Shown piece after piece: positions 12,006 through 41,748 of a DNA stretch of 42,377 nt (its first letter is position 1; every line of letters starts with the position of its first letter). Source of the DNA: Fragilaria crotonensis (lineage: Eukaryota; Bacillariophyta; Fragilariophyceae; Fragilariales; Fragilariaceae). Location of the stretch: positions 1 through 42,377 of the forward strand of contig JAKSYS010000549.1 in assembly GCA_022925895.1 (NCBI GenBank), written 5' to 3'. Under the pieces are notes generated by a model that was given only the letters and a program-made list of their open reading frames with translations, searched no databases and had not been told where the DNA came from. The position numbers and the translations under genes are program-made.

Positions 12006-12476
12006 TGTTGAGATGTTCCAGATCTCGGCAACAGTACTTACACTTCCGGTGCGCAGTACCACGGTATTCCTACCAGCTAGTAGTTTGACAACACTATAAA
12101 CCCTTGTTTGTTTTCCTCTCTGCAATGTTGTGACTACTTTAGATTACTCCTATCAATCCTCCCAGACCTCTTGGTCTTACCAAATTGATCTTGCTTCTTG
12201 GAAGTAACCTTCTTAGCCTTGTTCTTCACCTCAATCCATGCATCTTCATTAATTATATTTCTCGCACCGTTGATTCCTTTCGTTTCGATCGTACCAGTCA
12301 ATCTTGCATGTTGGACCTCATCCGTAGGAATTCGTATTCCATTTACGAATCCCGAATAAATATTCTTGAACGAATCTTCCAGATTCCGCACGACTGTCGG
12401 TCGTGCGTACTGCACTGTCATAGCAGTCCCGTTTCCACTGCTACTGTCGCTTGTCAGCAAACGCTTATCCTCGACA
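12006..12476 (-). repeat. 3' LTR of the copia element (471 bp)
   Basis: Appears identical to the right LTR over 461 bp, then differs by a 2-nt indel (CTTATCC here, CTTCTATCC there) before the shared TCCTCGACA end. The last 114 codons of pol (stop at 12,134) are encoded inside this LTR. Confidence 0.93.
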
Positions 12477-15125
12477 TCCTCCCTCCAACATTCAAGATTC
12501 CCATTCCTGATTCTCGCTGCATGCTTCGTGTGCAATTTCTTGGGGCAGTTCTTATTCAGTATGTCCGCCGAGTTCTCTTCCGATCGCACGAACTGAACCT
12601 TTAAATAACCTGCTTCTTCAAGTTCTCGAATAAAGTGTGCTCTGACGTCAATATGCTTCGTCCTTGCTCCAACGTGTTGATTCTTCACTAGATAAATCGC
12701 TCCCAGATTGTCTTCGTAAACACGCCCAACCAATTTCTCTTCTTTCGGGTATCTCATGACTTCGTCCAATAGCATCATAATAAACTTGTTCTCACATGCT
12801 CCTTTCGCCAGGCTTATGTACTCAGCCTCCGTACTTGACAACGTAACCACATGTTGAGTTTTCGACTCCCAGTTCACCAACGTACCACCAAGTGTATGTA
12901 GCCCGGACGAAATGCTCTTGCGGTCATCAATGTTCTTCGCGTAATCCGAATCAACAAACGATATGGGCCTCAATTCCTTCGGTTTCCTGTACGCTAAACC
13001 TTCATAGTACCTCGCCTTGATATGTCCCACTAAACGCTCTAGTGCTTTCCAGTGCTCGTCACCTGGATTAGACAAATGTTGCGCCAACTCTCGTGCAGGA
13101 TTCGCCAAATCAGGTGCCAGCTTGGTCATCAAATACATAATCTTGCCAACAATCGAACGGTACTCGGTCATTCTCACAGGTTCTCCCTTGTTCTTGCTTA
13201 GGAATTTGTTTGGATATCCCGGGGTCTCAGCTTCCTTGATACTCCTTCCCACACTCGTCTCGAATGACTCAACAATTTCGTCCTCCAATTTTGTCATACT
13301 CGCAACAACGTAGCTCTCACCGTTATCGTCAGTTTTCCAGTCGTACCATACTCCAAGATGCTTCTTCAAACGTCCCAAGTCAGAGATATTGAACCGTTTC
13401 TTAAGTTCCGACTTAAACTTCTCAATTGTATCTTTCTTTCCAGCAAGTAAAACGTCATCCACGTGTACCACTGCCATCAGAGTCACTTTGCCTGCTGTAT
13501 TCTTCCAATAGTAAAGGCACGGATCAACCAGACTCTGTATCATCTTCATGACTTGCGTCAAGTATCTGAACAATGTCTTCATGAATAGGCGCGGAACGTC
13601 AACTCCTCCATACATAGGTCTCGTCAGCTTGATACAAAACTTCCTCCGTTCGTCTTCCGTGATAAATCCTAGTTCAACCATTCCTTCTGGCCATTCAGCA
13701 AATACTTCTCTGTCTGCTTCAAGTTCCGCATTTAGGAATGCTGCTTCGATGTCAATCATTTCCATGATCCAACCTTTGCCCTGCCGGTACACTGCAACTG
13801 CAATTGTAGTTCGTACTGTTGTGTCTGTTGCAACCGGCGAGAAAAACTCAGTGTAATCCACTCCTGGGATCATGACGTAGCCCTTAAGTACGATCCGACT
13901 CTTGTATCGCAATGACCCATCTTGCTCTTCCTTGATCTTAAATATCCATTTCACAGGTATAGGCTTGCGTCCTTTCAGCATCTCTCTGGGAAACTTCTTC
14001 CAGGCATCACGTGACAGAAAATTGTTGATTTCCACAATGGCTGACGGTTTCCACTTAATTCCGTTCTTCCCATCCATCGCCTTACGAAACGTTTTCGGCT
14101 CTCCAGGATCCGATGATAAAGTCGCATTGAATGCAACTTGGTCCGTTCTACTTCGTGTTCGTACTCCAACTTCGTCGTCCTCGATTCTGATTGGTTCATC
14201 AATTCCAAGTCTCTTCATTTCGTTCTCCAGTCTCGTTACGCTTCGTTGCGGCCTCTCGGTTTGATCAATTTCGTCAACTTTGTCGTTCGTTTCGTTCTCC
14301 GCCATTTCTGGAGCATTTTCTCTCTGAGGAAGCTCAGGTAAGTCCTCCTCTTCCACACGCTCGTTGCTGTCATCAGTCTGGACCGAACGCGAGTCGTCGC
14401 TGTCGCTTTCGTCTTCAATAGCGGCAGCATCGTAGGTTTTTCGAATCTGGTCGTCGCGGTCGTCATCGCTTCGTTCGTCGATTTCTCCATCGATTCTCGG
14501 TCGTTCGTCGTCGTTGAAAATCGCATCCGCGTGTATCCTCCCTGCTGCAGACAATGGTGGGCTCAGAGAACGTTGAACGACGGCGAGTTCTTCGTCATAT
14601 TCGGGGATCAAGTGAAGTTCCTTGCTTGCGACCTCCTCTTCTTGCTCAATTGGTGCCTCCTTCTCGTCCAAAATCAGCTCAGGGTCGAAGACCTGAGTTA
14701 GGGTCAGTCTGATATCGTTGGCCGCGTTCGTCACGTCGGCCCAAACATGCACATCACGTGTTTCCACGACCTTGCTTGTTACTGGATTGTACATACGGTA
14801 CACATCCCTGGCATGGTTTTCACCATAGCCAATCATCACCATGGGGGAACTCTTCTCCTTGAACTTCCCCTTCATGGTGGCCCTGTTTGTAACATAGCCA
14901 ACCCTCCCAAACTGGATCAAATGAGGATAGATGTTGCTCTTTTCACCATAGAATTGCTCGTCCGGAGGTACTGTACTGCGTGTATTCGGTAGCACATTAC
15001 CCAGTAGTGCAGCGGTCTTTGTCGCTTCCGCCCACAACTTCGCTTGCATCTCTTTTGTCCATGCTGCGGCAATCATCATAGCCAACGCACGCTTCGCATC
15101 TCTCGAAAACATCCGTTCCACGACA
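12134..15125 (-). CDS. Copia polyprotein, C-terminal part: end of integrase, reverse transcriptase, RNase H
   Basis: About 997 codons continue the frame broken at the transposon. They begin VVERMFSRDAKRAL, so the integrase catalytic Glu (in VVER) lies here, apart from its two Asp partners at 25-26 kb. After an acidic linker come the reverse transcriptase signatures KWIFKIKEEQDGSLRYKSR and VVHVDDVLLAG (catalytic DD). RNase H follows with FVDSDYAKNIDDRKS and TLSSTEAEY, and a C-terminal segment with KHIDVRAHFIREL, usual for copia elements. No internal stops or frame shifts are present. Without its start codon and N-terminal half it cannot be made as a normal polyprotein. Its last 114 codons run into the LTR. 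Confidence 0.95.
12477..12486 (-). other. Polypurine tract of the copia element
   Basis: On the minus strand GGAGGGAGGA directly abuts the 3' LTR (which begins TGTCGAG in that direction). This is the expected position and composition of the plus-strand primer for reverse transcription. Confidence 0.8.
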
Positions 15126-15127
15126 CC
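15126..15127. repeat. 2-bp target duplication (CC/GG) left of the nested transposon
   Basis: The same dinucleotide is at 25,165-25,166. Removing one copy with the insert restores the integrase frame ...QHNG|VVER exactly, with 5,451 nt (3 x 1,817) in total. Confidence 0.8.
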
Positions 15128-15151
15128 CATCAGAAAGCACTATATGGTGAG
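15128..15151. repeat. Left terminal inverted repeat (24 bp)
   Basis: Matches the reverse complement of 25,141-25,164 at 18 of 24 positions, perfectly over CATCAGAA at the outer end and ATGGTGAG at the inner end. Confidence 0.8.
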
Positions 15152-15505
15152 GCAACAATTAAATGTTGAGAAGACACACAATACTGTTCATTAGTTCTTG
15201 GAAGTCACATGTAAATGGTTACATTCCCCATATATCTTATGATGTCACCGTTAAACGTATGTATTGAACATATTAATCACAATTATTGTTGATAGTCACT
15301 TAATACATTGTGTGTTTCTCGCCATTAGTTGTATCGCATCGGACATTATATTGCATGTATGTAAATTCAAAGTTAGATTGAATGTTATGAAGTCGCCATT
15401 GGTTTTTTTCTCCTAAGCAATGTATTGTTGGGGTTCCAATGTTTGTAGGGACTAGTAACTCATCAATGGCGGTGTCGAAATATACTAATTTAGTAAAAAT
15501 GTTCA
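15152..15505. other. Left subterminal non-coding region of the transposon
   Basis: AT-rich and without a gene. It lies between the inverted repeat and the 3' end of the acidic-protein gene and is a plausible site for transposase binding, as in other CACTA elements. No tandem array is visible. Confidence 0.5.
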
Positions 15506-17282
15506 CTACTCATCATTCAAATCCCACGCCGCTCGAATATAGCGTGGTTGCAACATGCTGGCTGACCCTTCAACGGCAGTCGGTTCATCACTTATTCTCC
15601 CTCCTACCTTCTTCCTGTTTCCCTCTTTAATGCAATAGTTTAGGAACTCCTTTTCCACTGCAGCAGCCTGCGGGCAAGCCCTGTCCTCAACAACCAAGTC
15701 GTACAGCTCATTAAAGCGCCTCATGCCGGCATGACTCCATCCGCCATATTTGCAGGTCCCACTATTCTGAACGGTATACTTTCCCGAATTACTTTCTTTC
15801 CGCTTTGCTCCGATTGTCCTGCCTGTGCACTACCCTGTTTCGTCCACTTATCTTGGTAATTCTCGTACATTAGTAGAGCAAATGCCTCGTCGCTTACTGT
15901 GACCAGCTTGTCACTGCTACCCGTCATCGTTGCCTGTGAGATCAGTTGATATTGCTTTTGAACATTCCACACTCGTTTTCCAACCACACAGGACAAGAAT
16001 TCGCCAAAGAACCAAAACGCAGCCTCCTTTTCACGTTCGGTTTTTGCCCGCCTGAGCGTACACAACTCCTCGATGGTGAACAATTCCTTGCCCTTCTCTT
16101 GGAATTTGGGCATCGTTTCCTCCACCACAATCTTCTTTCCCGCCGTCTCGCATGTACTCCTCTTTGCATTCAACGACTCATTGAAGACACTTTCGTAAAC
16201 CACCCGATACATCAAGCGCTTGTCCTGTGGGACCTTTTCATGCCTCATCACCCAATCCATCGCCTCTCGTAACATGTCATCATTGCTTATAAATTTAATT
16301 TTTCGAAACACCTTTGATGTAACGAATGCCTTAACCCGTTGTGTCGCATACTCTTGCTGATTCCTCCTCGATTCACTTTTGGACATGCCACGAATTGGTA
16401 CGTCAAGGTTCACAACAGCGGACTCACCATTTTCTTTCCTCCCGGAACTCTTGCGTTGCATGCTTAGTGTACTAGTCGAACTTGCGCGATTGTTCCTGTC
16501 CTCATCCTCCACATCCTCGTCATAAAGTCTCCTCTGTATCTTTGAGCGTCGCGGAGGAGTCTCTTCGTGGCTTGTTGCACTCGCATAGTCATCTTCTCTG
16601 TCCTCATCCTCCACATCCTCGTCATCAAGTCTCCTCTGTATCTTTGAGCGTTGCGGAGGAGTCTCTTCGTGGCTTGTTGCACTCGCATAGTCATCTTCTT
16701 CATCGGCGTCACCTGCTTCTTTCTTATCTGCGCAATCATCATCATCATCATCATCATCATCCTCCAAAACCTCTACTACGGCTGCAATTGTAGGGTTCGG
16801 AACGACGCGGCCTGCAAAAAGATTTCCATCATCGTCATCGCTCGGGTCAGATTCATTTTCGTAAGATGATGACGATGATGATGATTTGTGTAACTTGGGC
16901 GCTCTCACTGGTTTTCTGGCTTTTCCTGTCATCTTCTTCCTTTTCACGGCTCCTTCCCTTGACGACACGAGTGTTAACTTCCTTGGTTGTTCAAGAACAT
17001 CGTCCACATCGTTCGATGAGACTTTAGTTTTCTGCCTTCGTTGATCACGATTATTGTCCACCTCCTCCACTTCATCATTGCTGTCGACGTCGTCGCTGGC
17101 AACGTCAATTTTGGGGCAGGTTTGGTCGCAATTCTTTTCCCAGTCGACTTTCTTCTCGCTACACTAGTACTTTTCCTTACCTTTCCGTCTTCTGTCCGAC
17201 GTTGTTCCGTCGTGGAGACTTTCTCACTTGTCCTGTTGACCTTGTTCGTGGTGAGCCTGTCATGGTTTGTCCAACAACTCAA
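15506..17282 (-). CDS. Acidic, Ser/Lys-rich protein of the transposon, unknown function
   Basis: About 592 aa if two single missing bases are allowed for (near 17,110 in an A run and near 15,728, where the residues PA should run into MRRFNELYDLVVEDR). With them the length is an exact multiple of three. The N-terminal half is low-complexity: basic stretches, a poly-Ser block, a run of nine Asp codons (CAT repeats, 16,735-16,761) and two tandem 34-aa copies starting EDDYASATSHEETPP. The C-terminal half looks globular: KAFVTSKVFRKIKF, AMDWVMRHEKVP, FTIEELCTLRRAK, KEAAFWFFGEFLSCVVGKRVW. It resembles no enzyme I know. The acid/basic mix suggests a DNA- or chromatin-associated accessory protein, but that is inference. 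It is divergent from the cargo gene across a 1.35-kb spacer with TATA-bearing repeats. Confidence 0.65.
16496..16699 (-). repeat. Two tandem 102-bp units inside the acidic-protein gene
   Basis: Units 16,496-16,597 and 16,598-16,699 are nearly identical and encode two 34-aa copies that differ at about two residues. The exact multiple of three keeps the frame. Confidence 0.9.
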
Positions 17283-18633
17283 GTGAAGCCAATGAAAACA
17301 ACTAGAGAAGCAGAAGAGCGATGAGTTGTGTTTGTTCCTTTTCTGTTTTGCGATTCTATGGTATCAATAATGGTGTTTGCTGCACAAATTATTGTGGCAA
17401 AGTCCCATTCAAACAGTGAATGCGAACCCCCTCAAATGTGCATACGTATGTATTGTATACTCAAAAGTGTAGTTGAATGCTTTAAAAATGCATGTGCATC
17501 GTTTGAATAAACGAGATATTGCTCGTGTAACAGCAATATGGCTTCTATGTAAGAATATACGGTTCAGTTTAAGCGTATAGGGCATGGTCAGTCGTTTTCA
17601 ATATTTGGGTGTTCCTCACGATGCAAGGCAGGACTTCGCTCTGGTACTGTATCTACGCGTGTGCGTGCGTTGAAGTGCACGTGCACTTCGACACTCCGAA
17701 TCAACGTCCTCATATTACGCATAGAGTAACAGAGACTATGATTTTAATACTAATGAACTTGTACATTTGACATGTGTGTTGATATATATATACAAATTAA
17801 CAATTTAATAGTGCGTATATATATATAAATGCACTCTACCAGTGCATGTGTGCGTTGGACATGTGTTTCTCCTTAAATGTAATCACTGTGCTCATGTGTG
17901 TGTTTATACTATTCGTATCCTTGTTCTTATATAAAAGCACTATACCAGTACTTGTGTGCAATGGACATGTGTGTAACTCGCTAAGTATTATGATGGTGCT
18001 CAAATGTTTATAATATACTATTCAAATGCGAATATTTATATAAACTAACCGTATCAGTACTTATGTGCGCTGGACAGGTGTGGTCCTCGCTAAGTATCAT
18101 GAATAAAAATTTCTGCGGTATGTTTTGTACAGTGCTTTGTTGTAAGCAGCTTGAAGACATTTAGAAATAGATTTTTCAATCGTTTCTGCATTGAAGTCCC
18201 AGGTTAATCCTGGGATAGCTTTCCACTGTAAAATGCATAGTAAAGTCAGTTCGCATTTTCCCTTTTTCGGATACACATGTATTTCGCATCTGCAATGCGG
18301 TATGTTTTCTACGCCATTTGTTCGTAGAACAAATTCACTCCAATTCGACGACAACAACACACCGTTTGTTATTGCTTTTTCTTGGCAATGGCAAGTTATT
18401 GTTGTTGATTGTCGCTCTGGTATCGCTGTTGTTGTCGACTGTCGCGGCGTGAACGTTCTCTTTTTGTTCTTTCGTAGTTGACGTCGTTCCCTGCCATCCA
18501 GTGGGTTGAACGACGCCTGCGAAGGAGCAACACGAGAACAGGATCGCTGGTTTTGTCTACTGTCGCGGCGTGAACGTTCTCTTGTCGTTCTTTTGTAGTT
18601 GACGTCGTGCCCTGCCATCCAGTGGGTTGAACG
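17283..18633. promoter_or_regulatory. Spacer between divergent transposon genes, with repeats and TATA-like motifs
   Basis: AT-rich in its left part. It contains about three tandem 106-109-bp units, each starting TATATAAA, and a 121-bp-period duplication that runs into the cargo gene's start. The divergent flanking genes make it a likely bidirectional promoter (inference). A minus-strand frame of 184 codons (18,097-18,651) has no stop but also no recognised motif, and part of it is simply the reverse of the repeat. Confidence 0.5.
17822..18110. repeat. Tandem 106-109-bp repeats each opening with TATATAAA
   Basis: Units start at 17,822, 17,928 and 18,037. Shared blocks are TATATAAA, CAGT(A/G)C(A/T)T(A/G)TGTGC, TGGACA(T/G)GTGTG and CGCTAAGTAT(T/C)ATG. 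The third unit is truncated. Confidence 0.8.
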
Positions 18634-18660
18634 ATGCCTACGAAGGAGCAAGACGAGAAC
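18438..18660. repeat. Direct duplication (102-bp units, 121-bp period) over the cargo gene start
   Basis: Units 18,438-18,539 and 18,559-18,660 start ACTGTCGCGGCGTGAACG and end CGAGAAC. The second contains the gene's ATG. The first has ACG at the same place, so only the inner copy can start translation. Confidence 0.9.
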
Positions 18661-21103
18661 TTTATGTCGTCCAGTCGACGTAATAAGCGCAGTATAGCTA
18701 ATAAGAAGCGAACGTCGTCTTGTGCGACAGGCTTGCGAAACCTTGGGGCGTCAGCGAAGGAGAAGCGATCATCGTCTTGTGCGACTGACGGCAAAAATGG
18801 CGTTTGTCACAATGGCCAGGATGACATCCACGCTGATGGGAATAATGGAAAGGAGGATGATGACTTGGTATTTGAGGTTGATAGCGATAGCGATCAGGAT
18901 GATGACTTGTTGTTTGACGTTGATGGCGATAGCGATAATGAAGGCGATGTTGGTGGCTATGACGGTCCATGCTTGCCGAATCGACCGGAGCGCAAATTCC
19001 TGCCGTCGCAGAGACAAGCTATGCTATTGCTGTCGATGGCGGTGCCTCCTGAGGATAGAGCTCACTTCAAGGAGCGCTATCATGCCTTCGCGACTGGGAA
19101 GGAGACATCTCCGTGTCCCCTGGCTGGAACGACGCGAAAGGTATGCAACACTAACGTTGCTTGGATAGCCGCTGCATACGGATGCGACTTCGTACACCAA
19201 CTACAATGCGCGGCTGACATGTTCCCATTCTCTGGGATGGAGTCATGCTTCCTCAGCGAGATCTACGTCATGGATGTCATCCTCAATAGATCGCCTTTGA
19301 TGAAAACCGAACCAAGTGCCGAGCTTCCAACAAAGAAGGCTGCTTCATCGGTGGTGGGGTGAAGATGATGTCCTGTTGGTCAGATCATACCATGAAGACG
19401 ATCTTGATGATAAGAATGATTTCAAGTTTCGCACCATGATACTCTTCTTGCCTCAATGTGGCGTTTTCTACTGTGCCAGAGAGCGTCGCAAGGAGGATGT
19501 CGGTGTGGCTAAAACACATGTGGCCCTGGACATGAGCTGGCTTCGCCTTGAGAGGAGCACCGACAGTAATGGGAAGGTGTCGTACACCTTCGGCAAGGGA
19601 GGGTATGTCAAGCGATTTCATATGGAAGAACCAAAACAATTTCGGTACCTGGAGTACCGTGGCTATTCATGTGGGCGATTTGACGAATTCGTTGACCGTG
19701 TTTCGGCATGGCGAATTTCCTTGAACCTCACGAAGGATTTGCAGCAGAATCGGGTTGTCTACAGGGTGGAACAATGTCGGGACAGCGACGGCCCGAAGAT
19801 GGCACCTGATGTCTTCGATGGTTCATGGCATCCCGACATCCCACGGGAATATCTGGCGGTAGAATACAACCAACGCCTTGCAGTTGCGAACAGTGCAAGG
19901 CGGGACGGGCGTCACTATGCCGAGGGGTGTCATCACTATCGTCTGCCGGACACGTGCTGGATCATCGATCCGGCATCTGAACACTTTGTCGACATCATGG
20001 TGGACCTACCTTGCCTTGGTCAGCAGAGGAATCGGCAGTCGGTCATCATGGTGAGGAATGTCAACTTCCTGACTGACGATGGGGGTGAGGATCTTTTGGA
20101 TGCGATGGCTTGTATTACAAAGCATAATAAGGCCTTGAGACTTGCAAAGAAGAAGGGTGCAGCGAGGTCCAATGCTGGTGATTACGGCACCATGCATGCG
20201 ATTGGAACTCATGTGCACTTGGATGGTGTCACCACAAGCGCATACAAGGCAAATGAGGCTGTGGGTGAGGCTCTCCTTAGGGAAATGGTCGTCTCCCTCG
20301 CAGTGATTGGGAGGTGTGCCTTTCCTCAGGTATATGCTGTGATCCGCGACACTGAGGGGAATTGTGGTCTCCATCCTGTGGTGCCGATGGATGGTGAGGG
20401 TGGACGGCGAGTTGGATACACTGTCGACACGAGTGTCGACCTGGGAAACGCTTCTCATTATGACTTCAACGATGCCTCTCAAGGTTACAGTCAGTTTTTG
20501 GAAGACATTCCTGGAAAGGGAACGAACTGGTATCTTGTGATGCCCAACATCCATGGACGTCGTCCTGGTCCCAACTCGACCTGGGTCCCCTTTGCTGGCC
20601 TTGCTATCAAGATCACGAACGGAGTTGCCGTAAGCTGGGATGGTCGAGATATCCGACACTGTACGTCGGTGTCGGAACCGGATGGTCCCCCTGTTGAAGG
20701 GGCCGCTGGTGATTGGGCTGGAAGTGTGCGACATACGGAGAATCATCTGTATGGGACGTTTACTGCGGCAAAGGAAAGAGTGGTTGACGCCGGGAGGAAG
20801 ATGTCTGCTGCTATGGCTGTGGATCGTCCTGAACGCCCCAATCCTGCAGCTGCTGCCATTGCCAGTGGTGACTTGGAAGAGTCAAGCATGCCAGCGACAA
20901 GTGCCAAGAAGAGGAGGAGACGACAGAAAGTTAGGAAGAGATCGCGGCGGAGGCATTCTCATGTTGCTTATGAGGCTGCTGACGATAATGACGATGATGA
21001 TGATGAGGATGATGGTGGTGTGGTGCCGAAGTTTACTGAACCCTTGTTGCCTGTGGAAAGTCCCCATGCTACTACATACCGAATTCCGAAGATGATCCGG
21101 TGA
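18634..21103 (+). CDS. Transposon cargo protein, candidate 2-oxoglutarate/Fe(II) oxygenase-like
   Basis: About 822 aa with one frame change near 19,361 (GTGGTGGGG then TGAAGAT; one extra or two missing bases in a G run), joining AASSVVG to EDDVLLVRSY. The first 110 residues are basic then acidic and look disordered. A conserved region follows with PSQRQAMLLLSMAVPPEDR, AWIAAAYGCDFVHQLQCA, LDMSWLRLE and YRLPDTCWIIDP. Near the C-terminus are VDLGNASHYDFNDAS (HxD at 20,456-20,464), TNWYLVMPNIHG, FAGLAIKI, VSWDGRDIRHCTSV (His at 20,657-20,659) and YGTFTAAKERV. An HxD, then hydrophobic strands, then a distal His about 65 residues later is the layout of double-stranded beta-helix 2OG/Fe(II) oxygenases, but a distal Arg is not obvious. 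The tail is basic (KKRRRRQKVRKRSRRR, a likely nuclear signal) then poly-Asp. The fold assignment is inference; the protein may instead be an unclassified nuclear factor. Confidence 0.65.
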
Positions 21104-21130
21104 AAACACTTTTAATAGCAAAGATGACAT

Positions 21131-24100
21131 CTACCTTCGCTGTTTCTTCCGTGTTTCATGTGACCTGATGGCAACAATATCAACTTCGGATTCGTCGTCG
21201 TCATCCGACTCATCATCACCTTCATCATCGTCGTTGTCATCCTGATCTTCATCATCATCCTCGTCTTCATCATTATCCTCGTCTTCATCATGATCACCAT
21301 CTCTTTCATTACGAACCTTCACTTCGTAATCCTTCTCAAAAGTTGGTTTATGCCTGTCTTTGTGGCAGCTTGTGATCATGGTGTCCCACGCTGATGCCCA
21401 CTCTTCTTTCCTTAGGAAGAGGAAGAGGAAAGACTCGTCTTGTTCACGAACAGTGGGGTCAACATCGCGAATTCCAATCGTTGGTCCCACGATGTTTCTG
21501 ACGTCGATCAGATATAAAATCGGGTATGTTGCTTCTTCATCGTGGTACCACATCTTGTAACGCCCAATCATGGTGTTGCTGTCCATTCTGGTGTTTTCCT
21601 CGTCGATGGCAAGGAATGAGTGCACCAGTGCATACACGCCAGCTTTAATGGGTTCTTGTCCAACTTCGGGATGTTGATCCTCGTGATCGGAGGCAGGTCT
21701 CGCAAGTCAATGAACGTGTGGATGAAGGCTGGGAGGGGATGGGGATACTTATAGTTTGGCCACTCGACCATGGCGTGGTCATGCCATGGTTGACCGTCAT
21801 AGATGCTTGGATGGGCCCTGTATTTGTGTCCCTCAGCGGAGATGAACTCTGTGCTACACCGAAGCTCCCCATCCCCTGTATGGGGCAAACAATACGTTGC
21901 AAGGTAATGCATTGCCTTCCCCTGCAGGGAGTCTCCATGGGGATGATCCCCTGGATACTTGCGAAACCACTGGAATGATGGACGTGCATCGCCAAGAGGC
22001 CATGAGATCGTGAACCTCCGGCCGCCAAGCTTCCACTTATCTGCTGATGTGTTGCTGTCCTCTGCCGCTGCTGACCTTCCCCTCGCCATGCTGGCGTGGT
22101 CGCATTCCATGTCATAAACTGCTGACGAAATGGCGAGGTTCTCTACATATCGTTCTGCCGCTTGCTTCGTGAAAGTCTTCGCCCTTTTTTGTGTGTTCCG
22201 GGCTGTCATCTTGGAAAGTGGTATGTGAGCAGATTCAGCGTAGGCACTGTTCACATTCTCGGGCACACCATGGTCCAAAATATCTTCGCAAATGTGTAAC
22301 ACCAGATGATTCTTGATCGTGTTGTTTCCCATTCCAGTTTGTCGAGGACAGATGTTTGCAACATTGCGCATGAGCCACTGGACTGCGTATTTGGACTTCA
22401 CGACTTGATGCCTTGGCATTTCCGGTTGCTTCATCCACTGGTGCCACTGGAGGAGTGACGACACGGCCAATATCCAATCCGATACATGGCATTCGAAGCG
22501 GAGATTGTGATCGGGATGGGTGGGGATGCTCTTCGTTGCCTTGCTCTTCGCCTTCTTCTTCTTTGCCTTGCCTTCTGGCTCCCCCGCCTTCTTCGCCTTG
22601 GGCTTCATGTGGTTCACCTTCGTGTGCTTCGCCATCACCTTCTTGGGGGGCTTCTTCTTGGTCGGGAATATGTTCTTGAATGAGGTGGTATGAAGTGCAA
22701 ACAACTTCACCAGGAGGCATCCAGTGATCTCGTGACCCATGAGATTTGTACCAGATGAGAAGCCCTTGGGAAAGTTCATTCTGGGGAGGTCACGATCACT
22801 ATGTCTTGACAATTGTGTGCCAATTCTTGCACACAGCGCGTCATAACGTTTCACTGCCACAGAATTTTGCCCCCGCTTGGGATGCGAACGCTTCGAGGCA
22901 GTACTTGAACCAACCTAGCGATACAAGGTGCAACATCTCACCAGGGCATGCGCCAAAAATTCCGCGCTCATTGTGTGATCCGAAACGAGCCCTGCCAAAG
23001 CCGTTGCGCAGATAGTTTTGTGACATGTCTTTGAGTGCGTTCAGGTTTGCGGTGGCACCTACTTGACTTACAGCTGAGTTGGCACCAGCGATTAATCGGT
23101 TTATGGCTGCTGGTTTCCTGTGGTTAAACTTTGCCTTCGAGTACCCTGATAAACGTGTGGGGCATTCGCAAACACGGCAAAGCTGCTTGACCTTTTCAAA
23201 TCGGGCAGTGTAATGCCCACAGAGGCGATCGTGTCCTCGGTATCCCCAATGATGAAGGGAATATAGGGTGCAGCACCACTGGATACACTCTCTCGTTGTA
23301 ATGGAGATTCCACTTGAATCCGTGACGTTGGAGGTCAAGGTATCCCGATACTTCGAGGATGAACTCAATCTGAAGGTGCATCTTGTTGAGTAAATATGTT
23401 GCCCATGGCAAACCTGGGAGTGGTTTCAGGGGTACACGGGCAATCACGCTGCCGTCAGGCAGGTATGGGCGCGGTGTAACAGTATCAGGAACACCGCCTT
23501 GCATCTTGGTTTGGTGTGCAGGGCTGCTATGACAAACATAACCAAGAATTCGCATTGCGGTGTGCTTGAACGAACACTGTGCTTCAGAAGACCATGGGAT
23601 ATGGTCAGTGGCTCCATTTGAAGCCTACCGTAAGTGTCGACCTGTGTCTTGTCCATGGCCACGATTGTGGGTAAAATCATATCGACATCTGGATTTTTCA
23701 CGAGGGCTTCGTATGTCTTTCGGTAGCACTGTCCTGTGTTGATGTCACCAATCATCGATGATTTGGGGGGACCAATGAAAGGATCCTTTTCTGGCGAATC
23801 GAATAGGTAGTTTTCATCACGATTCAGCAAAGGGCAGGAGAGTAGGGATGCGAAGACTTCCCTGGCATCGAAATATATCATTGGTACTGTCCTCCTGGAG
23901 TAAGGGAGGTAGAACAACTTCTCCTTCGGAATCAATCCCTTCATGTTGTACCGACAATACAAGTTATGGACAACCTTGCGGCGAGAAGGTTGGCAGTCGG
24001 GATGGAATATGTGACCCTGGCCATTTGCCTTTGCAGCCCAATTGAGAATGCCTGAAAAGGCTTTCAGTGGCGCTTTAGTTCCTTCAGTAGATGCAATAAC

Positions 24101-24571
24101 TCTATATGTACCTTTTCTTCACCAGAGAACCTGTCCAAACCGAATGGATTCAATCGTAACTCCTGCATTTCCTCGTACAAGTCCAAAATGATCCCATCAG
24201 GGATCTCATTGTCCTCGCTCTCATCCTCTGATTCTTCACTGCTGTTACATACAGAGACATCACCATCAGACATCATACCAAAGTCGTCATCAAACCCTTC
24301 ATTGTTATGGTCATCAATTGGTTTGTCAACTGTTGTTCACGCCTAGAATTTTTCTTGATTGTCCTGCACCAGCGGTATCACATTCCTCGTTGCAATCTGA
24401 AGCATCAGGTCTGTGCACGTCATCAAGAACTCCGTTGTTGACCATATCTGATGGCAAGCTATCGTAGAAAGCGGCACAACGTGCATTCCAAGAAAGGTGA
24501 CTGGACAGTCGATGGAAAGCTGCATTGCAACATGCACAACGAACACTACCACCAGTTGGCACCGATGACAT
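21131..24571 (-). CDS. Plavaka/CACTA-like transposase, frame broken by about six or seven small shifts
   Basis: This is the enzyme that cuts and rejoins the transposon, nuclear by inference. Read in order across frames it begins MSSVPTGGSVRCACCNAAFH with HLSWNARCAAFY (zinc-finger-like). An acidic linker follows, then FSGILNWAAKANGQG, SRRKVVHNLYCRYNMKGL, VPMIYFDAREVFASLL, MILPTIVAMDKTQVDTYGRL (probable first catalytic Asp), RILGYVCHSSPAHQTKMQGG, LCGHYTARFEKVKQLCRVCE (Cys motif), GIFGACPGEMLHLVSLGWFK, WILAVSSLLQWHQWMKQPEM and GVYALVHSFLAIDEE. It ends in a long Asp/Glu tail. This order (DxT, 'RILGY', 'CRVCxCP', 'HxxxLG') is that of Plavaka-type transposases. Shifts lie near 24,340, 24,070, 23,555, 23,260, 23,215, 22,865 and 21,650. 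Restored length would be about 1,150 aa. The 3' end is 27 bp from the convergent cargo gene. Consensus errors are likely, but real inactivation is not excluded. Confidence 0.75.
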
Positions 24572-25140
24572 GAAAGCAGTTCTTGAAAGTCAAAAGTGAA
24601 TCGATGATTGTGAAAAAAACCATTTATGTGACTGGACAAATACAATTACAAGAGTGAATACTTAACAGCAAAACGTTTGCAAGATACATACTTCGTGTGA
24701 AACAATGACATGAAATTTTGAGTGGGTACAAAGCATGGTTACACATTTAAACTTTACGTTCAGTGGAAAATTTTAAAGCGCGCAAGATCCAAATCAAATG
24801 GCAGAATTGGCGGTAAAATATGCGCACAATCGCCGGTGCATGTCGTTAAATAAGAAAATAAAATGTAAAATTACAATCCAATGTTCCATACTACATCACA
24901 AATGTCCAAAACGAACAGCAAAAGTTATCAAATATTGCATCTATAAAATGTAAAATTTATGAACAAACCTTCAATGTTGCTTGAAATAAGAAGACATGCC
25001 GATATCTAGCTACGCATCAGTACATATGCCCCATACACGTGTATGATTTACCTATGTAAATGTCAGTTATAACAATAATATTGTTAAAAGCAACCATATT
25101 ATCACCATTAACTGCCTAAATCTCGCCATGTAAAGGAAAG
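24572..25140. other. Right subterminal non-coding region of the transposon
   Basis: AT-rich, with no gene. In the 90 bp next to the right end, read inward, the motifs ATGGTGAG, ATGGCGAG and ATGGTGAT recur at about 15-25-bp spacing, and ATGGTGAG is also in the left repeat. CACTA elements typically carry such subterminal transposase-binding repeats. It also includes the likely promoter of the transposase. Confidence 0.55.
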
Positions 25141-25164
25141 CTCACCATTACGCACCTTCTGATG
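25141..25164. repeat. Right terminal inverted repeat (24 bp)
   Basis: The reverse complement begins CATCAGAAGGTGCG and pairs with the left repeat at 18 of 24 positions. Confidence 0.8.
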
Positions 25165-25166
25165 CC
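25165..25166. repeat. 2-bp target duplication right of the nested transposon
   Basis: CC on the plus strand (GG in integrase sense), the partner of 15,126-15,127. Confidence 0.8.
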
Positions 25167-27623
25167 GTTATGTTGTGGCGTATGAGGGGCAGTGTACTCC
25201 AACTGTATCCCGTACTCTCCTTCGCAAATCTTACGTAGCTCGGACATATGTTCACCGGCATTGTCGCACCGAAGATACTTCACAGGCTTTCCAGACGCCT
25301 TCAACTTGTCCAATAAGTCCTTCAGAACTTTTGTTATGACGTTTTTCCTGGCGCCGTAGAAATCCCACGACTTTCTCGTTTTGTCATCCACAAACTTGAA
25401 CCAATAGCGTGACCCCATGACTGTTTCCGAATAAGGGCCGCTCGTGTCCATGTAAAGTCGTTCTCCCGGATTGTCCGCTGTCACCTTAGTAGTTTTGTTC
25501 GTTCTCTTTTGGGTCGCCTTCGCTCGTGCACATCCGTCGCAAACGGACATTTTTCCTGTCGCAATAATTTCGAGCGCCTTCAGCGTTTCTCGCACCACTC
25601 TCTCCGTTGCGTGACCGAATTTTTGATGAGCTTCATTGATGTCCATGTACTGTTTTCGCTCTTTCTTCTCCATTTCTTCGTCTTTTTCGACAATTCCTTC
25701 GACGTTAAACGCCTTTCGTTCTCCTTTGACACGAGATGCAATCAGATACGCCATTGCGTCCGAACCCGTTTCGAATTCAAGCATCTCCCGCGACTCATTA
25801 AAAATCTTTGATCCTTCTTTTCCAGCCACAAACTCGTTTCCTTTCTCTGTAAGTCGGCCAACACTTATCAAATTCTTCGCAAATCCCGGAACAACCATCA
25901 CATCTTCCAACTTCAGCTTCTTTCCTGAGCTTTTCTGTTCCAGGGTCAAATCTCCAATTGCAATTGCTTTCATGGTTTCATTGTTTCCAACTCTGACATG
26001 TTCACCTTCAGTTGCTGTCTTCAAGTTAGTCATCATCTTGGTGTTAATGGAGACATGAGTTGTTGCTCCAGAGTCAACAAGCCAACTTTCATGCCCACTC
26101 TCAGTAACAGGAGACATGAATTTCCTTGAATTAGTAGCAAAAACTTGCTCGTCCCACATCCACTCTGCACCTTGACTCGATTTATCCATCCGGTACTCAG
26201 GTTCCTCTTGCTCCTCGTTAGTAAACTCAGTGTTCTCGACCTTTTCTGCAGCTTCAGACTCTCCTGTCTTGCTTTCCTCATAATGAATTTTGTCTTCCTT
26301 GTGATCGATGACTTCCTCTCCAGCTTCGGGCTCCTGCGCCTTGCTTTCTTCATACTCCAGATCGTCTTCTGCGACATCTTCAATTTTCTCTTCAGCTTCG
26401 TCTTCGTCATCTTCGTCGTCACTCGTTTCGCACATATCAGCCCAACTCATAGTATTTGACTTCTTCTTCTCCCTTCGAACTTTCACCTTGGCTTGCTCGT
26501 CGCCTCTCGGTTTCCACTTAAACTCTCGAATGTCCTTCAACACTGCTCTCTTCGTATTGTTGTACTCAGCAATCTCCTGCAATAACTCCATTGCAAACTT
26601 GTCCGTGTCAAAGTAGTAGTCCTTCGTAGACTCTACGTTCCTCTTGACGTCATCCTCCCGGCTCTCAGCTCCTCGGATTGTCATACCAACAAACATACCG
26701 GACTCTTCCTTCTTTGGACATTCCTTCGCGATGTGCCCGAAAGCTCCACAGTTGTAACATTTGACCTTCAATTTTGCGTTTTCTCGTTCTCCGTTGTTAT
26801 TGTTGTTGCTGTTCGTTCGGCATTCTCTTGCACGATGGCCTTGCTTCCCACACTTGTTGCACTTGCCCTTGAACGCACGCCAGCCTCCTTTTCCGCTTGA
26901 TGTGTTGAGCGCCAGGTGCTTGCCTTTCTCTCTCTCTTTTCCTTCTTGATTTTCGCGAGCTTGCCGATTTTTGAACGGCTCAACAAACATGTCGTAATGG
27001 CCCAGGATCTCGGTTATAAAGTCCTTGTGGGTGAAATCTTTCGACCCAATCTTGCCATTAAGCGAAGCAATTACAGACTCGTACCTTCGTTTGGGCAATC
27101 GCGCCAAAATAGTCGCTTCCATCTGCTCGTCGCTGCGCCTCGTTCCATTTTCGCATTTTTTGACCTCCCGATTCAATCGCTCCATCTCCATGATCCAGAG
27201 GTGAGGATCGTCCAAATCCGACTTCATGTAACACTTCTCCAACTTGGTCGTTGCCTTCACCAAGTCCCTTGTCTTCTTCGAATCGTAGCGGTCCTTCAAC
27301 GCTTGATACATCGCGAACGCAGTTTCGTGAGATTCTATGATTGCGAACGCGTCCCCTCGACAGGACATGATGAGGAAATGCTTCGCCTCGTCGTCTTGGC
27401 GAATCAGCTCTTCCTCTTCGTCGGTTCGTTCGGCCTTTATCGCCATGCTCGGCGACACGCGGTCCTCCAAAAGTGCGCGCTTGAAACCTTTCGTGGCGGC
27501 GAAGACCTCGGCTTTCATGAAAAATTCGCGGGGTTCCATTCCCCCTTTCGTAGTGTCCGTCCCACTGAAGGGAATCACTTTGATCGACTCCAGGGTTGCT
27601 CCAGCCTTCCTCGCTTCGCTCAT
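25165..27623 (-). CDS. Copia polyprotein, N-terminal part: gag, protease, most of integrase
   Basis: This starts at MSEARKAGATLESIKV and is open for 819 codons until the nested transposon, after which the frame reads into the insert's terminal repeat and stops. A gag domain of the copia UBN2 type occupies residues about 20-220. Two zinc knuckles, CNKCGKQGHRAREC (255-268) and CYNCGAFGHIAKEC (289-302), bind RNA. An acidic linker follows, then an aspartic protease with LVDSGATTHVS (DSGA at 517-520). The integrase has the HQKFGH...CDGCARAK zinc region, Asp in YMDTSGPY, Asp in LRCDNAGEH, and ends at TPQHNG. The third catalytic residue (Glu of VVER) is 10 kb away past the insert. A gag-protease product could still be made. 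There are no other lesions. Confidence 0.95.
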
Positions 27624-27683
27624 CCTTGCGTAGTCGTCTCTCGTTGGACCTTAACTTCCCACAAACAATCGTTTTTAAAAACG
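27624..27683 (-). other. Copia leader with perfect 14-bp palindrome at the primer-binding position
   Basis: Between the 5' LTR and the gag start codon lie 60 nt. The first 14 (27,670-27,683) are CGTTTTTAAAAACG, a perfect palindrome directly next to the LTR. This is where the tRNA primer-binding site should be, but no TGG-type initiator-Met complement is visible. Confidence 0.6.
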
Positions 27684-28816: not shown

Positions 28817-31800
28817 TCAAGGAATATCGATAGCGCTGAAGTCCACATCGGTGTCGAACTCATCAAACGATTCGACGTAATCATTTGCTTTCGGACGAGA
28901 TTTCGACTTAGCACCAGTTGCGACAACTTTGACTTTCTTAGAAGGCTGCTTTTGAGAGACTAGCTCTACCAGCTCTTCCTTCTCAACAAAGTTATTAATC
29001 GCCCGCAGAAGTCGCTCTCCATATTCCTTGATAATGTTTTCTCCCAGGACCCCAAGGCTTGTGAGCTCTTCGTTGGTCGTAGGTACCGTCCAAGCAATTT
29101 TCTTGATGGATTCAGGTTTCATGATGTTCCACGCTAACAGAGAGCAAACAAGTGAGTGAGCATGAGAGGGAATGGGGGGCATCTTGACCAGTACCACTTA
29201 CAGAATACCTTGTTTCCGGCGATTTGTTCTTCTTCCGCCCACATACCAACCAGTCGGTTGATTAGGGCAATGAGAGTTTGTGTCTTGTCTTGGGGTAGGA
29301 GCGACGGAGTCAGCTGCGATTTACTCCCGACCACCCGTGCATCCACTTCCAAATCACCATCCGAGTCAGAGTCCTGCGAACTATTGATAGTCACAAGCTG
29401 CGAGGATTTGAACTGCCTGCTTTTCGTGGCTGTTTTGGCTGGAGTTTTCCTCTTGGTCGCACTTTTCTCTTTTGGCTTGGCAGCCACGTCATCTTTTACT
29501 TTCGCCTTCGCAGACACCTCGTTCGCTGCGGGGGTCTCTTTCGACAAAGCCCTCGGAAAGTCCAGAATGAATCGACGCTGTCGATTCATGATGGAATATG
29601 CCTGCTCACCAAGTGTGACGTAGTCGGAATTAAAGCCCCCAGCATTTTGAACCTGCTCCTCCACCAATATCTTTTCGTAAATCATGGCGTGAGCAATTCT
29701 GTCAATGTCTTTCTTTGGATACTTCTTGCCTGCCCCAACAGCCTGTAGTTTCGACAAATCAAGGAATTTTGTGGCAGTCTTGCTCTTGCTGCCTCGAAAG
29801 AGCTCAGTAACTTGCAGCAACGTGACGCCTCGGCCGCCACGCTGATTTAACATGCTTTGAAGAAGCTGGAGCAATGCCAAGGCATCGTCGGTCAGATCTC
29901 TTGGTTCGGCCACCCTTCCACTTTTACAATTGTCACATGTCTTCTTGCACTTGCTTCGTTCAAAGGTCTCTCCAAAGAATTCGAGCTGCATTGTTCGCCG
30001 ACAAAGGAACTCGTTCTCACAGTATCGCAAGCATGTATACAGCTGATCAATCTTCCTGTTTGTACTTTGACTGTTTGGATTGTTTGACGCCTTGCGAATC
30101 ATTCCTTCAAGAACCTTCTTGTCCTTGTAGGCGTAGAAAAGGATGCAGTCTGCCTTTCCGCCATCTCGACCTGCACGCCCGGATTCCTGGTAGTAATGAG
30201 TGATCGATTTTGGCATGGCGTAATGAATCACATACCGAACATCAGGTTTGTCGATTCCCATTCCGAAAGCTATTGTCGCACACAGTACATTCAATTGACC
30301 ATTGCTCCACGCGTGATGACGACGTGCTCGTTCGGCATCGTCCACTTCGGCGTGATAAAACGAAACGCGAAGGTTGCTACAACTCTTCTCCTTCAATTTC
30401 TCCTGCAGCTTTTCAGACATGCTTTCGCAGTCCTTACGACTCAGACAGTAAATGACCCCAGATTCCTTGCGACGCGCAGCAATATACCCTGCAATTTCAT
30501 CGATACTCTTGGCATCTTTCTTTCTGACTTCGTAGTGTAAGTTGGGACGGTTAAAGGAAGATCTGTAGCGATATTCGTTCGTCATACCCAACGCCCGGAT
30601 GGCGTCGTTCACAACCTTTTCGTTGGCTGTTGCTGTGAGGGCCATAAGCGGCACATTCGGGTACTCGCGTCGTAGTAACCCTAGTTGGTTGTAGTCTGGT
30701 CGGAAGTCGTGACCCCAATCACTGAAAAAGTGTGAGGCATCGTTTCCATGTGTAAAACGCGGGATGTGTGTAGAATCACTTACCTCAAACAATGAGCTTC
30801 ATCCACCACAAAGCGACTTATATGATTCCTTTCGTGTAATTTTTTCAACACAGTTTTGATCAATCCTGAATGCCGTAACTTCTCGGGAGTGATATAGAGC
30901 AGTTTCACCCCGCCATGTGCCGAAGTGGCAAATAAACGTCGTTGGATATCTCTCTGCTCGGTCTCGTAGTCTTGAGCTGAGTTGAGAAAGACCGATTGGA
31001 CGCCAAGCTTGGTCATGCTTTGTACTTGATCTTGAATTAAGGAGAGGAGAGGCGAAATGACGACCGACAAACCTGGACAGCACCAAGCAGGAAGTTGGTA
31101 GCAAAGGATTTTCCACCTCCGGTTGGCATCAAAACGAAGACGTCACGCCCTTTGAGAGCATTCTCAATGACCTCCTTTGACCTGGGCGGAAGGAAGAGTG
31201 CCCGAATTTGCGACGATTCTCAACATGGTGATCTAAGACATCACCGCCCGGTGGAGCATAATTATTAGTCTCATTATTGTTCCAGTTACCTTCGTTGCCA
31301 TCAGCCCATTGAAAAAAATCACAGGCTCCTTGATCAGCTACTGAACACTTGTAGAATTGACGTCCGGCATTAGCTTCCGATCTTGCAGTCAAGAGGCGAC
31401 AAGGCTGATTGTGCGTCGGGCACAAAGGAGCATTGATGTCCATGTGCGCGCCATGGTTGGATCCACATGCAGTGGTAGCAGCGTGATAAGGCAGTTCCGA
31501 GCTCGCGAAGGTGTTATTTCGGTACGCATCAACTTCTGTTAATCGATCATCGTAACGTCCGTCATCAAGTCTCAAATCAGAGGAATGTGTAAAGCTTTGG
31601 TTGCGGAAATTTTCAGCACCGGATTTCGTCGAGAAGTGTTGCTGGAAAGCATCGTCATTTCCGGCAAAAGAGTTCGAGGCTCCAGACGGGGTGTTTCCTC
31701 TGTGTTGAGATTCTCGAGAATATGGATTCTTTAATGGTGGTTGCCGGGCGTATTCGTTGCTTTCTTCAAACGTATTGGACGACTCGAAGGAGGTACTCGC

Positions 31801-32892
31801 TGGCGGCTTTTGAGGCTGACTGTAGGGATTAGCATGAGCTTGGGAGTGTTGCGCGTACAGCGACTGCTGCAAATGCCCAGCACTTTCTCCTCCTCCAGAC
31901 TGTGAGGTATTCGATAGATCAAAGTGATGTCCCCCATTGTTTGCCGCCATGGATTGTGAGGCATTTATTGACGTCCGAGAAGCATCATGACTCGCTTCCT
32001 GCCGAAAAACCCCGTTGTCTCGTGGAAATGGATGCAAGCCTCGATGCGATGGTTTGGGATCGGTGCTGGACTGCACGGTGGAATCCTCGTTGGACAGATC
32101 ACACAAGTCATAAAAAGCTGGTGCTGGAGGAGAAGATGGAAGCGGATAGGACGACGTGCGTCGCGACGTTTGACTTTGATCATTCCCTTTCGGTGTGGCT
32201 TTGGACGGGACAAAACTGATGTCACTGAGCTCACTATTGCGTTTATTCTGGTGGTTCCATCGTTCTGCCACCAACCTGTCAACATCCAAATCCATTAAGA
32301 GGTCATCGACATGATCATCGGGAACATTTTCCTTCCCTTTGTTTTGTTGACGCATGATTTCCAAGCACATGGTTTGTTCTTCTTTCATCGCGGCTTCTTT
32401 TCCGAAGACACGCTGTGCGCAAGCAGGCGAATTGAGTGCGTTCGGCAAGTGCTGACCAAAAACGGCATTGTGATGATTGCGGATGCGACGAGTAGGAGAG
32501 AGAAAGGGTGCAGTTGATGAGGGTGCGTCTGACGATGGATATAGTGACTTTGTCGGAGGCAAATTCAAAGTCTGGCTGTGCAGACGACCCGAGGAATGGG
32601 TGGGAGCACTACTTGTAATTGCACGCTCTATCTGAGCCAGACTCGATGACTGATAGAGGCTATTATGATCTGAGTTGGAGCTCACGAACGTGTATGTCAT
32701 TGATCGCTCCCGTCTTTCGCGCCAGGCACGTTCTGCGAAGCTCGTTCCATCTTGTTGAATGGCATACTCGAACCCTGTTGTTCTTCCACTCTTCGCGTCC
32801 ACAGTCGATTCTGCCTGATCAAGCCAATCACGGTGATGTTGTCTGTTGTTTTGAATAACGGGCATCACTGTCGCTGTCCTTTCTGTTGCCAT
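28817..32892 (-). CDS. RecQ family DNA helicase (BLM/Sgs1-like) with GRF zinc finger, two apparent frame shifts
   Basis: An ATP-dependent 3'-5' helicase that acts on recombination intermediates and stalled forks in the nucleus. Exon 1 is 32,892-30,784, intron 30,783-30,722 (62 nt), exon 2 30,721-29,202, intron 29,201-29,134 (68 nt), exon 3 29,133-28,817. Residues 1-500 are Ser/Gln/Asn-rich and disordered. About 505-548 is a GRF finger (CPTHNQPC...NAGRQFYKCS...CDFFQWAD). The helicase core follows: FGHSSFRPGQ, then the Walker A PTGGGKS, DEAHC, WGHDFRPDY, FGMGIDKPDVRYVIHY and QESGRAGRDG. RQC zinc ligands are ENEFLCRR...CKKTCDNC. A C-terminal HRDC-like segment contains AWTVPTTNEEL. One base is missing near 31,175 and one near 31,106, flanking Walker A. 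With both restored the length is exactly 1,316 codons, so consensus errors are likely. Confidence 0.9.
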
Positions 32893-41200: not shown

Positions 41201-41748
41201 GAGGAGGGAGCGGAATCGTGCTAGAGTAGAGGCCGAGGTATCGCATCCGGCGGGAATGGCAAAGTATCCGTAGGGCGTAAAACCATGAAGGAATGCCGCA
41301 ACGGAATTTCCTTGCATTGTGACGCCGTAGACTCTGAGTATGGGAACTTGCGGAGATGTTGTGGCGCCGACGACGTGGGAGGCAGAAGCATTCGGATTTT
41401 GGGTAAGCGGTTTTCCGCCAATGACGTCCATGTCGAGCCATTGGAAACTAAGATCTTGCTCGTTGGAAGTAATCGCGACGGGAGGACGACTCCACTTGGA
41501 AGTAACTGGATCTGGTAGGCGGGGTTTGTCGATATCGTGCTCTTCCTCTTGACTAGTGTGAAGCATTAACAAGTCGTCCAAGTCGTCGCCTTCATCCATT
41601 TCAATCATATCATGTTCAAATTCTGGTTCGTGATCCAGATCGCGATCCCGTTCGTCAATGGCATTGCCACCCCTCCACGAAGGCGTTTAGGCCAATGAAG
41701 TACATCATGGTCAGTGGCGGGAGACGTTGAGCGCTTCAGTGTCGACAT
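38210..41748 (-). CDS. POLD1: DNA polymerase delta catalytic subunit, two apparent frame shifts
   Basis: The B-family replicative polymerase for the lagging strand, nuclear. The start MSTLKRSTSPATDHDV is chosen because one missing G near 41,672 joins KRLRGG to NAIDERDRD. A second shift (two bases) lies near 40,915 between FVLRF and IDRD. Exon 1 is 41,748-40,825, the phase-0 intron 40,824-40,739 (86 nt), exon 2 40,738-38,210. With three bases restored it is 1,152 codons, typical for the family. Exonuclease motifs are LSFDIEC, NVQNFDIPYL and YCLKDALLP. Polymerase motifs are DFASLYPSIMQ (A), SANSVYGFTGA (B) and VYGDTDSVMI (C). The C-terminus has a complete CysA (CLGCK...CAHC). CysB retains CTGDGCACQFYRRKK but lacks its first CxxC: WAAAQRIHG stands where WTQCQRCQG is usual. 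Confidence 0.95.

Follow-up and report, generated by a model that had tools for sequence, protein, structure and literature searches.

A PlavakaB-like DNA transposon of the diatom Fragilaria crotonensis that carries a gene for a predicted TET-fold dioxygenase

The window, the whole 42,377-nucleotide stretch that was analysed (contig C502), comes from Fragilaria crotonensis, a diatom of the order Fragilariales, and holds a 10,037-bp unit at positions 15128-25164. The unit contains gene 1, a cargo gene and a transposase gene. The reading favoured here, with somewhat better than even confidence, is that of a Plavaka (PlavakaB-like) transposon equipped with gene 1 and with a TET-fold dioxygenase, encoded by the cargo, that would counter methylation-based silencing of the transposon DNA. 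The analysis established the borders of the element, the fold predicted for the cargo together with its metal triad, purifying selection on the cargo, and its repeated association with two unrelated transposase superfamilies.

Borders, insertion site and copies of the element

The genome searched was the F. crotonensis assembly, 62.1 Mb in 881 contigs; a passage of PMC9476933 describes the SAG 28.96 assembly as built from Nanopore and Illumina data. When 13 named proteins were set against the loci read, two annotated F. crotonensis proteins agreed with a locus along their entire length, at 770 of 770 and 379 of 379 residues. The features of the element and of its insertion site are as follows.

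15126..15127, no strand: left target site duplication, CC (matching 2-bp duplications in 7 of 7 two-ended copies)
15128..15147, + strand: left terminal inverted repeat, CATCAGAAAGCACTATATGG (identical border in 8 full-length left ends)
15506..17363, - strand: gene 1, an accessory protein with a charged N-terminal part and a helical C-terminal part; main frame 15721-17163, C-terminal part 15506-15829, N-terminal part somewhere within 16974-17363
17748..18102, no strand: imperfect tandem repeats with units of about 90-109 bp (61-75% alike), in the stretch that separates gene 1 from the cargo, whose starts are head to head
18422..18660, no strand: a 118-nt sequence present twice as direct repeats with 92% identity, where the cargo starts
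18634..21103, + strand: cargo, predicted TET-fold Fe(II) dioxygenase, with a frame break near 19350 in the window copy
21131..24589, - strand: Plavaka-type transposase, several overlapping frames in the window copy, with the Pfam Plavaka match in frame 23447-24118
25145..25164, - strand: right terminal inverted repeat, CATCAGAAGGTGCGTAATGG, paired with the left end
25165..25166, no strand: right target site duplication, CC
12134..15127, - strand: interrupted copia retrotransposon, 3' part (RVT_2, E 7.5e-37)
25165..27650, - strand: interrupted copia retrotransposon, 5' part (gag, zinc knuckles, Pol_BBD)

The two 20-bp ends are alike at 14 of 20 positions, and the ends of the family read CATCAGAA, with the CATCA..TGATG termini of PlavakaB. 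Excision of the element together with one CC in silico gave a single open frame of 1825 amino acids for the host copia gag-pol across the junction; if both CC were retained the frame was broken. The unit marked out in the earlier note by its borders, inverted repeats and 2-bp duplication is thus borne out by the paired ends, the CC on both sides and the restored copia frame.

With the window counted, the left end has ten matches in the genome, eight of them full length, and the right end has seven. One left-end match lies on a 14,867-bp contig (C855) that stops about 6.4 kb into the element; another lacks the first 73 bases (C182) and a third has the first 90 bases only (C156). The 2-bp duplications are identical on both sides in all seven two-ended copies, the window again included (CC, TA, TG, TA, CA, TA, AA). 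The chance of such agreement in seven out of seven is about 4e-9, and the length falls within the 2 or 3 bp typical of PlavakaB. Over about 3.9 kb around the ends, identity to the window ranges from 98.7 to 99.8% in the six other two-ended copies. Gene 1, cargo and transposase are all matched in each of the seven, so cargo and transposase do occur together in independent copies, the check that the earlier note had proposed. Copies holding only the transposase, with the cargo mostly outside such ends, were named there as the refuting outcome and did not appear; all seven copies contain the three genes, and 83 of the 114 cargo loci listed lie beside transposases. The window element is best explained, with moderate confidence in the explanation as a whole, as one recent copy of a PlavakaB-like family of F. 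crotonensis.

The frames of gene 1, cargo and transposase are broken in the window copy, and certain other copies are more open. Part of the breaks may be sequencing errors, since the assembly combines Nanopore with Illumina data. Beyond the retrotransposon, the window encodes a delta-type family B DNA polymerase, a RecQ-type helicase and a GRF zinc finger protein (38213-41608 and 29137-32892, both on the - strand).

The transposase and gene 1

The transposase matches PF18759 (Plavaka) at E 8.7e-8, with 32.2 bits against a curated cut-off of 26.3. This match, and the presence of all three genes in every two-ended copy, uphold the earlier description of a Plavaka-type transposase accompanied by two further genes. 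A CxxC was noticed by eye in the transposase translation; according to the main text of PMC12730594, PlavakaB is also defined by the grouping of its transposase in a phylogeny and by two transposase motifs, C(2)C and H(3-4)H, that lie after the second D and before the E. The 2-bp duplications and the Plavaka transposase separate the element from the KDZ transposons (Kyakuja, Dileera, Zisupton), which have 7-8 bp duplications and a KDZ transposase.

At C872:110523-111251 and about 20 similar places there are Plavaka transposases with a stronger match to the later part of PF18759. These are probably another Plavaka lineage.

A Pfam search with gene 1 gave no family. Its predicted model has a helical C-terminal half and low overall confidence (predicted template modelling score, pTM, 0.52), and the fold search with this model returned no match. 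In the eight MULE-type or unassigned loci scanned, gene 1 had nothing below E 0.05. As a weak assignment, gene 1 probably assists the Plavaka transposase by binding the DNA ends. The tandem repeats at 17748-18102 and the 118-nt duplicate at 18422-18660 form a possible promoter, regulatory or transposase-binding region.

The predicted cargo enzyme

The open frame of the cargo is long in copy C341; another open copy lies at L063:4262-6685, on contig C87, and the catalytic core is put at about residues 110-745 of the predicted protein. The predicted model has a double-stranded beta-helix core that is closest to TET structures. The top 16 rows of the fold search are all DNA-modifying TET enzymes, followed by a gap, and sequence identity to the TET structures is about 10%. 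Of 63 aligned cargo rows, 5 have a gap at one or more positions of the HxD...H triad for Fe(II); the triad is kept in 56 of the other 58. Three residues are conserved on the last core strand, N704, K714 and R722, of which K714 and R722 are invariant or nearly so. No Pfam family was found for the cargo sequence, and the best Pfam match among 63 cargo members was that of one member with TrAA12, at E 1.4e-6. According to the main text of PMC12730594, fungal TET/JBP members of the PE type are likewise recognised by structure only. The oxygenase-like character that the earlier note gave the cargo therefore stands at the level of predicted fold, where it is TET-like, and finds no Pfam family in the sequence. 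The model supports an oxygenase, specifically a TET-like one.

A longer cargo version of 1291 amino acids lies at L072:2765-6637 (contig C829). It has about 550 extra C-terminal residues without a Pfam match, parts of which recur in C466, C122, C609, C285, C183 and C265.

Partners of the cargo across the genome

Cargo loci were collected with three cargo queries; matches were merged at 2 kb, and a partner was counted if within 6 kb. Each search scored its best candidates, so that true locus numbers may be higher; matches from a search with the C829 C-terminal extension were left out. Double counting of a broken gene is possible, with C482 as a potential case, and some near-identical pairs, for example C76/C137, might represent allelic contigs.

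Among the matches listed there are 114 cargo loci. A Plavaka transposase accompanies 64 of these, against 4.1 expected under uniform placement, and a MULE match accompanies 19, against 2.25 expected on the same assumption (about 15-fold and 8-fold enrichment). None of the 114 has both. The remaining 31 have neither within 6 kb, and gene 1 is nearby in 8 of them. Orientation is nearly fixed; cargo and Plavaka transposase stand tail to tail in 61 of the 64 listed cases. In an earlier census of 77 loci, the cargo stood head to head with the MULE in 17 of 19 cases and with gene 1 in 30 of 31.

Initially 26 clusters seemed to hold cargo only, and 13 of these were read in wider context. Ten have a Plavaka or MULE transposase: a divergent Plavaka transposase at C471, C526, C76 and C137, and a MULE at C87, C131, C532, C16, C32 and C765. 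At two more, C108 and C659, a second kind of transposase, weakly MULE/SWIM-like and distinct from the first MULE type, stands tail to tail with the cargo (C108:107200-116900, MULE E 0.007, SWIM 0.01; C659:138000-145500). The last has a Ulp1-type protease gene alone, adjoining the cargo at C873:62754. In the region C873:58500-68300, which includes the Ulp1-type gene, about 2 kb separate two distinct cargo genes, and these fall in separate parts of the cargo tree.

From the side of the transposase, 36 loci showed transposase and gene 1 but no cargo match. Six were fetched, and the cargo was present in the gap at all six, the best fragment in each at E 2.6e-63 or better. Of the 60 listed transposase loci that have gene 1 no more than 8 kb away, 41 carry the cargo after later searches.

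A MULE as second carrier

MULEs are recognised by a MULE transposase, long inverted repeats and a duplication of about 9 bp. The C87/C131/C532 family is a MULE, and carries its transposase (MULE PF10551, E 4.4e-9; SWIM, 9.3e-6; Transposase_mut, 1.6e-5), a Ulp1 protease gene (E 4.4e-9) and the TET-like cargo. The element of about 7.5 kb on contig C87 (within 151300-161999) has inverted repeats of 483 bp that are 98.6% identical and a target duplication of 8 exact bases. The C532 copy has a 9-bp duplication, TTTACATTA; at C131 a duplication was looked for and none was readable. Copies or fragments related to the C87 element are present on C131, C532, C16, C32 and C765. The cargo is not tied to Plavaka; MULE elements of F. 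crotonensis carry it too.

Carrier switches and selection

The cargo tree was built from 37 rows, with nine loci that repeated others dropped and fragments of broken copies merged column by column. The eight rows of the first MULE type form one clade with support 100/100; in this set the labels of C22 and of the second C873 cargo rest on a nearby MULE match alone, and C22 has a gene 1 match within 6 kb as well. The Plavaka label requires three changes on the tree, at least two of them forced by well supported branches. The cargo therefore switched carrier at least twice.

The ratio omega is 0.14-0.19 between distant cargo copies, for the four pairs with a computable synonymous divergence (dS), which exceeds 1 in these pairs, exceeds 2 in two of them and is partly saturated. 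Two further distant pairs are saturated in dS. These values indicate purifying selection on the cargo between distant copies. The omega pattern as a whole, with the weaker selection in near-identical pairs considered below, fits selection that maintains the cargo in active elements and slackens once a copy has inserted.

Proposed function and alternatives

In the proposed mechanism, the Plavaka transposase would act on the CATCA..TGATG ends, make the 2-bp duplications and move the element. The cargo would oxidise a methylated base on the transposon DNA, most likely 5-methylcytosine. This oxidation may weaken the methylation-based silencing of the host, which would permit expression of the transposon genes or make the ends available for use. 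Gene 1, the accessory protein found with Plavaka, might help the transposase at the DNA ends. Literature support for an action on transposon methylation comes from Phaeodactylum tricornutum, in which methylation is limited to transposable elements according to a passage of PMC12344493. Transposon transcripts of F. crotonensis rise at high pH, 9.2 against 7.7, as a passage of PMC9732472 reports (RNA-seq data PRJNA866361); these transcripts were not assigned to the gene 1, cargo or transposase described here.

Several observations weigh against this mechanism. At E up to 1 the 63 cargo members between them matched 17 Pfam families, from which Tet_JBP (PF12851) is absent, and a search of the genome with Tet_JBP gave zero matches, in which the control was equally silent. 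By eye, no arginine for 2-oxoglutarate was identified at its usual place on the last core strand, and because of this the cosubstrate and product of the cargo may differ. Near-identical cargo pairs have omega of 0.34, 0.55 and 0.91, that is, weaker selection. The CpG observed/expected ratio of the element is 0.89; with no CpG depletion the sequence bears no sign of past methylation, though the copies are young. Of the 169 Plavaka transposase loci listed, 102 have no cargo match within 6 kb by searches alone, or 99 once three cargo genes read from the gaps are added. Cargo-free Plavaka elements may well exist, for example among loci without gene 1, including the lineage with the stronger PF18759 match; the gaps that were read belong to loci bearing gene 1.

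A different chemistry is the most serious alternative, though an unlikely one. The cargo could be a writer in the manner of Chlamydomonas CMD1 or trypanosome JBP, leaving a lasting modified base on the transposon DNA, and as part of the same account this base might shield the DNA from silencing or nucleases, or mark the ends for the transposase. Less likely again is a direct part in transposition or an action on RNA or protein, such as hydroxylation of the transposase or processing of transposon RNA. The exclusively DNA-modifying TET enzymes at the top of the fold search, with the gap below them, speak against it, and a cargo that accompanies the unrelated Plavaka and MULE is hard to fit with a role specific to one transposase.

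It is quite improbable that the cargo has no function and is decaying as a passenger. The frame breaks in the window copy and several others, and the weak selection in near-identical pairs, would agree with decay; the low omega between distant copies (at dS above 1 and partly saturated), the nearly universal triad and the long open frames in many families would not. It is most improbable that the cargo belongs to a conventional diatom gene family with transposons merely nearby or with copies taken up by chance, even though 31 listed loci have neither transposase within 6 kb and the annotation of its named relatives goes no further than hypothetical protein. Within a family the copies share exact borders that enclose the cargo, and its order and orientation are fixed in nearly all listed Plavaka and MULE cases. 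The enrichment is far above uniform placement, and 10 of the 13 reread loci turned out to hold a Plavaka or MULE transposase, with 2 weakly MULE-like and 1 with a Ulp1-type gene only.

A broader proposal, held tentatively and with less than even confidence, is that outside fungi, TET-fold enzymes carried by transposons have undergone a large radiation of their own in diatoms, with at least two switches between Plavaka and MULE carriers, and that the enzymes may use an altered cosubstrate site to make or erase a DNA mark so far unknown in diatoms. If so, DNA transposons of eukaryotes would have evolved TET capture repeatedly, as a general means against silencing. Should the interpretation of the cargo be right, transposon capture of DNA-base dioxygenases would be no fungal peculiarity; it would also have taken place, or persisted, in a stramenopile alga whose 62-Mb genome has about 100 such loci, spread over two unrelated superfamilies of transposons. 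Silencing escape by transposon-borne TETs, an open question, would become directly testable in a culturable, Nanopore-sequenced diatom. The cargo enzymes, recognisable by fold only, may also be new DNA-modification tools.

Comparison with known systems

The solved structures of TET2, NgTET, CMD1 and CcTET share with the cargo the fold, predicted for the latter, and the HxD...H triad; identity to them is only about 10% and the cargo has no Pfam Tet_JBP match. VANDAL of Arabidopsis, with VANC, resembles the diatom element by proposal, in that the transposon brings along an anti-silencing factor of its own. VANC is described as a sequence-specific DNA-binding factor and not a dioxygenase, whereas the cargo is a predicted dioxygenase.

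The KDZ transposons share the combination of a DNA transposon with a TET/JBP dioxygenase. Their transposase is unrelated, and their duplications are 7 bp (Kyakuja) and 8 bp (Zisupton) in the main text of PMC12730594, against 2 bp in the diatom element. The earlier note had taken the fungal TET/JBP pairing as a trait of KDZ; KDZ does have it, but the pairing extends further, since the same text describes TET-bearing Plavaka. It reports that 11 lineages of DNA transposons in fungi contain TET/JBP genes, PlavakaB with its CATCA..TGATG ends being one of them, and suggests that TET-bearing transposons thereby escape silencing (Kojima 2025, PMC12730594). The words diatom, stramenopile and algae are absent from this main text, as is MULE from its listed lineages, and a search of open-licence literature found no report of TET transposons from diatoms, nor of MULEs that carry TET genes.

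The closest known system is the TET-bearing Plavaka (PlavakaB) of Agaricales fungi, which, as described in the main text of PMC12730594, has CATCA..TGATG ends, 2-3 bp duplications, a Plavaka transposase and an inner TET/JBP-fold gene, as in the diatom. The comparison of the enzymes is by published description and not by protein sequences. The Agaricales enzymes are of the PE type with HxE, whereas the diatom cargo has HxD. The diatom element adds the conserved gene 1, and the enzyme loci, at least 114 in one genome, are many more. What is new relative to the fungal cases is thus the host lineage, the MULE carrier, HxD in place of HxE, a conserved third gene and a larger number of loci.
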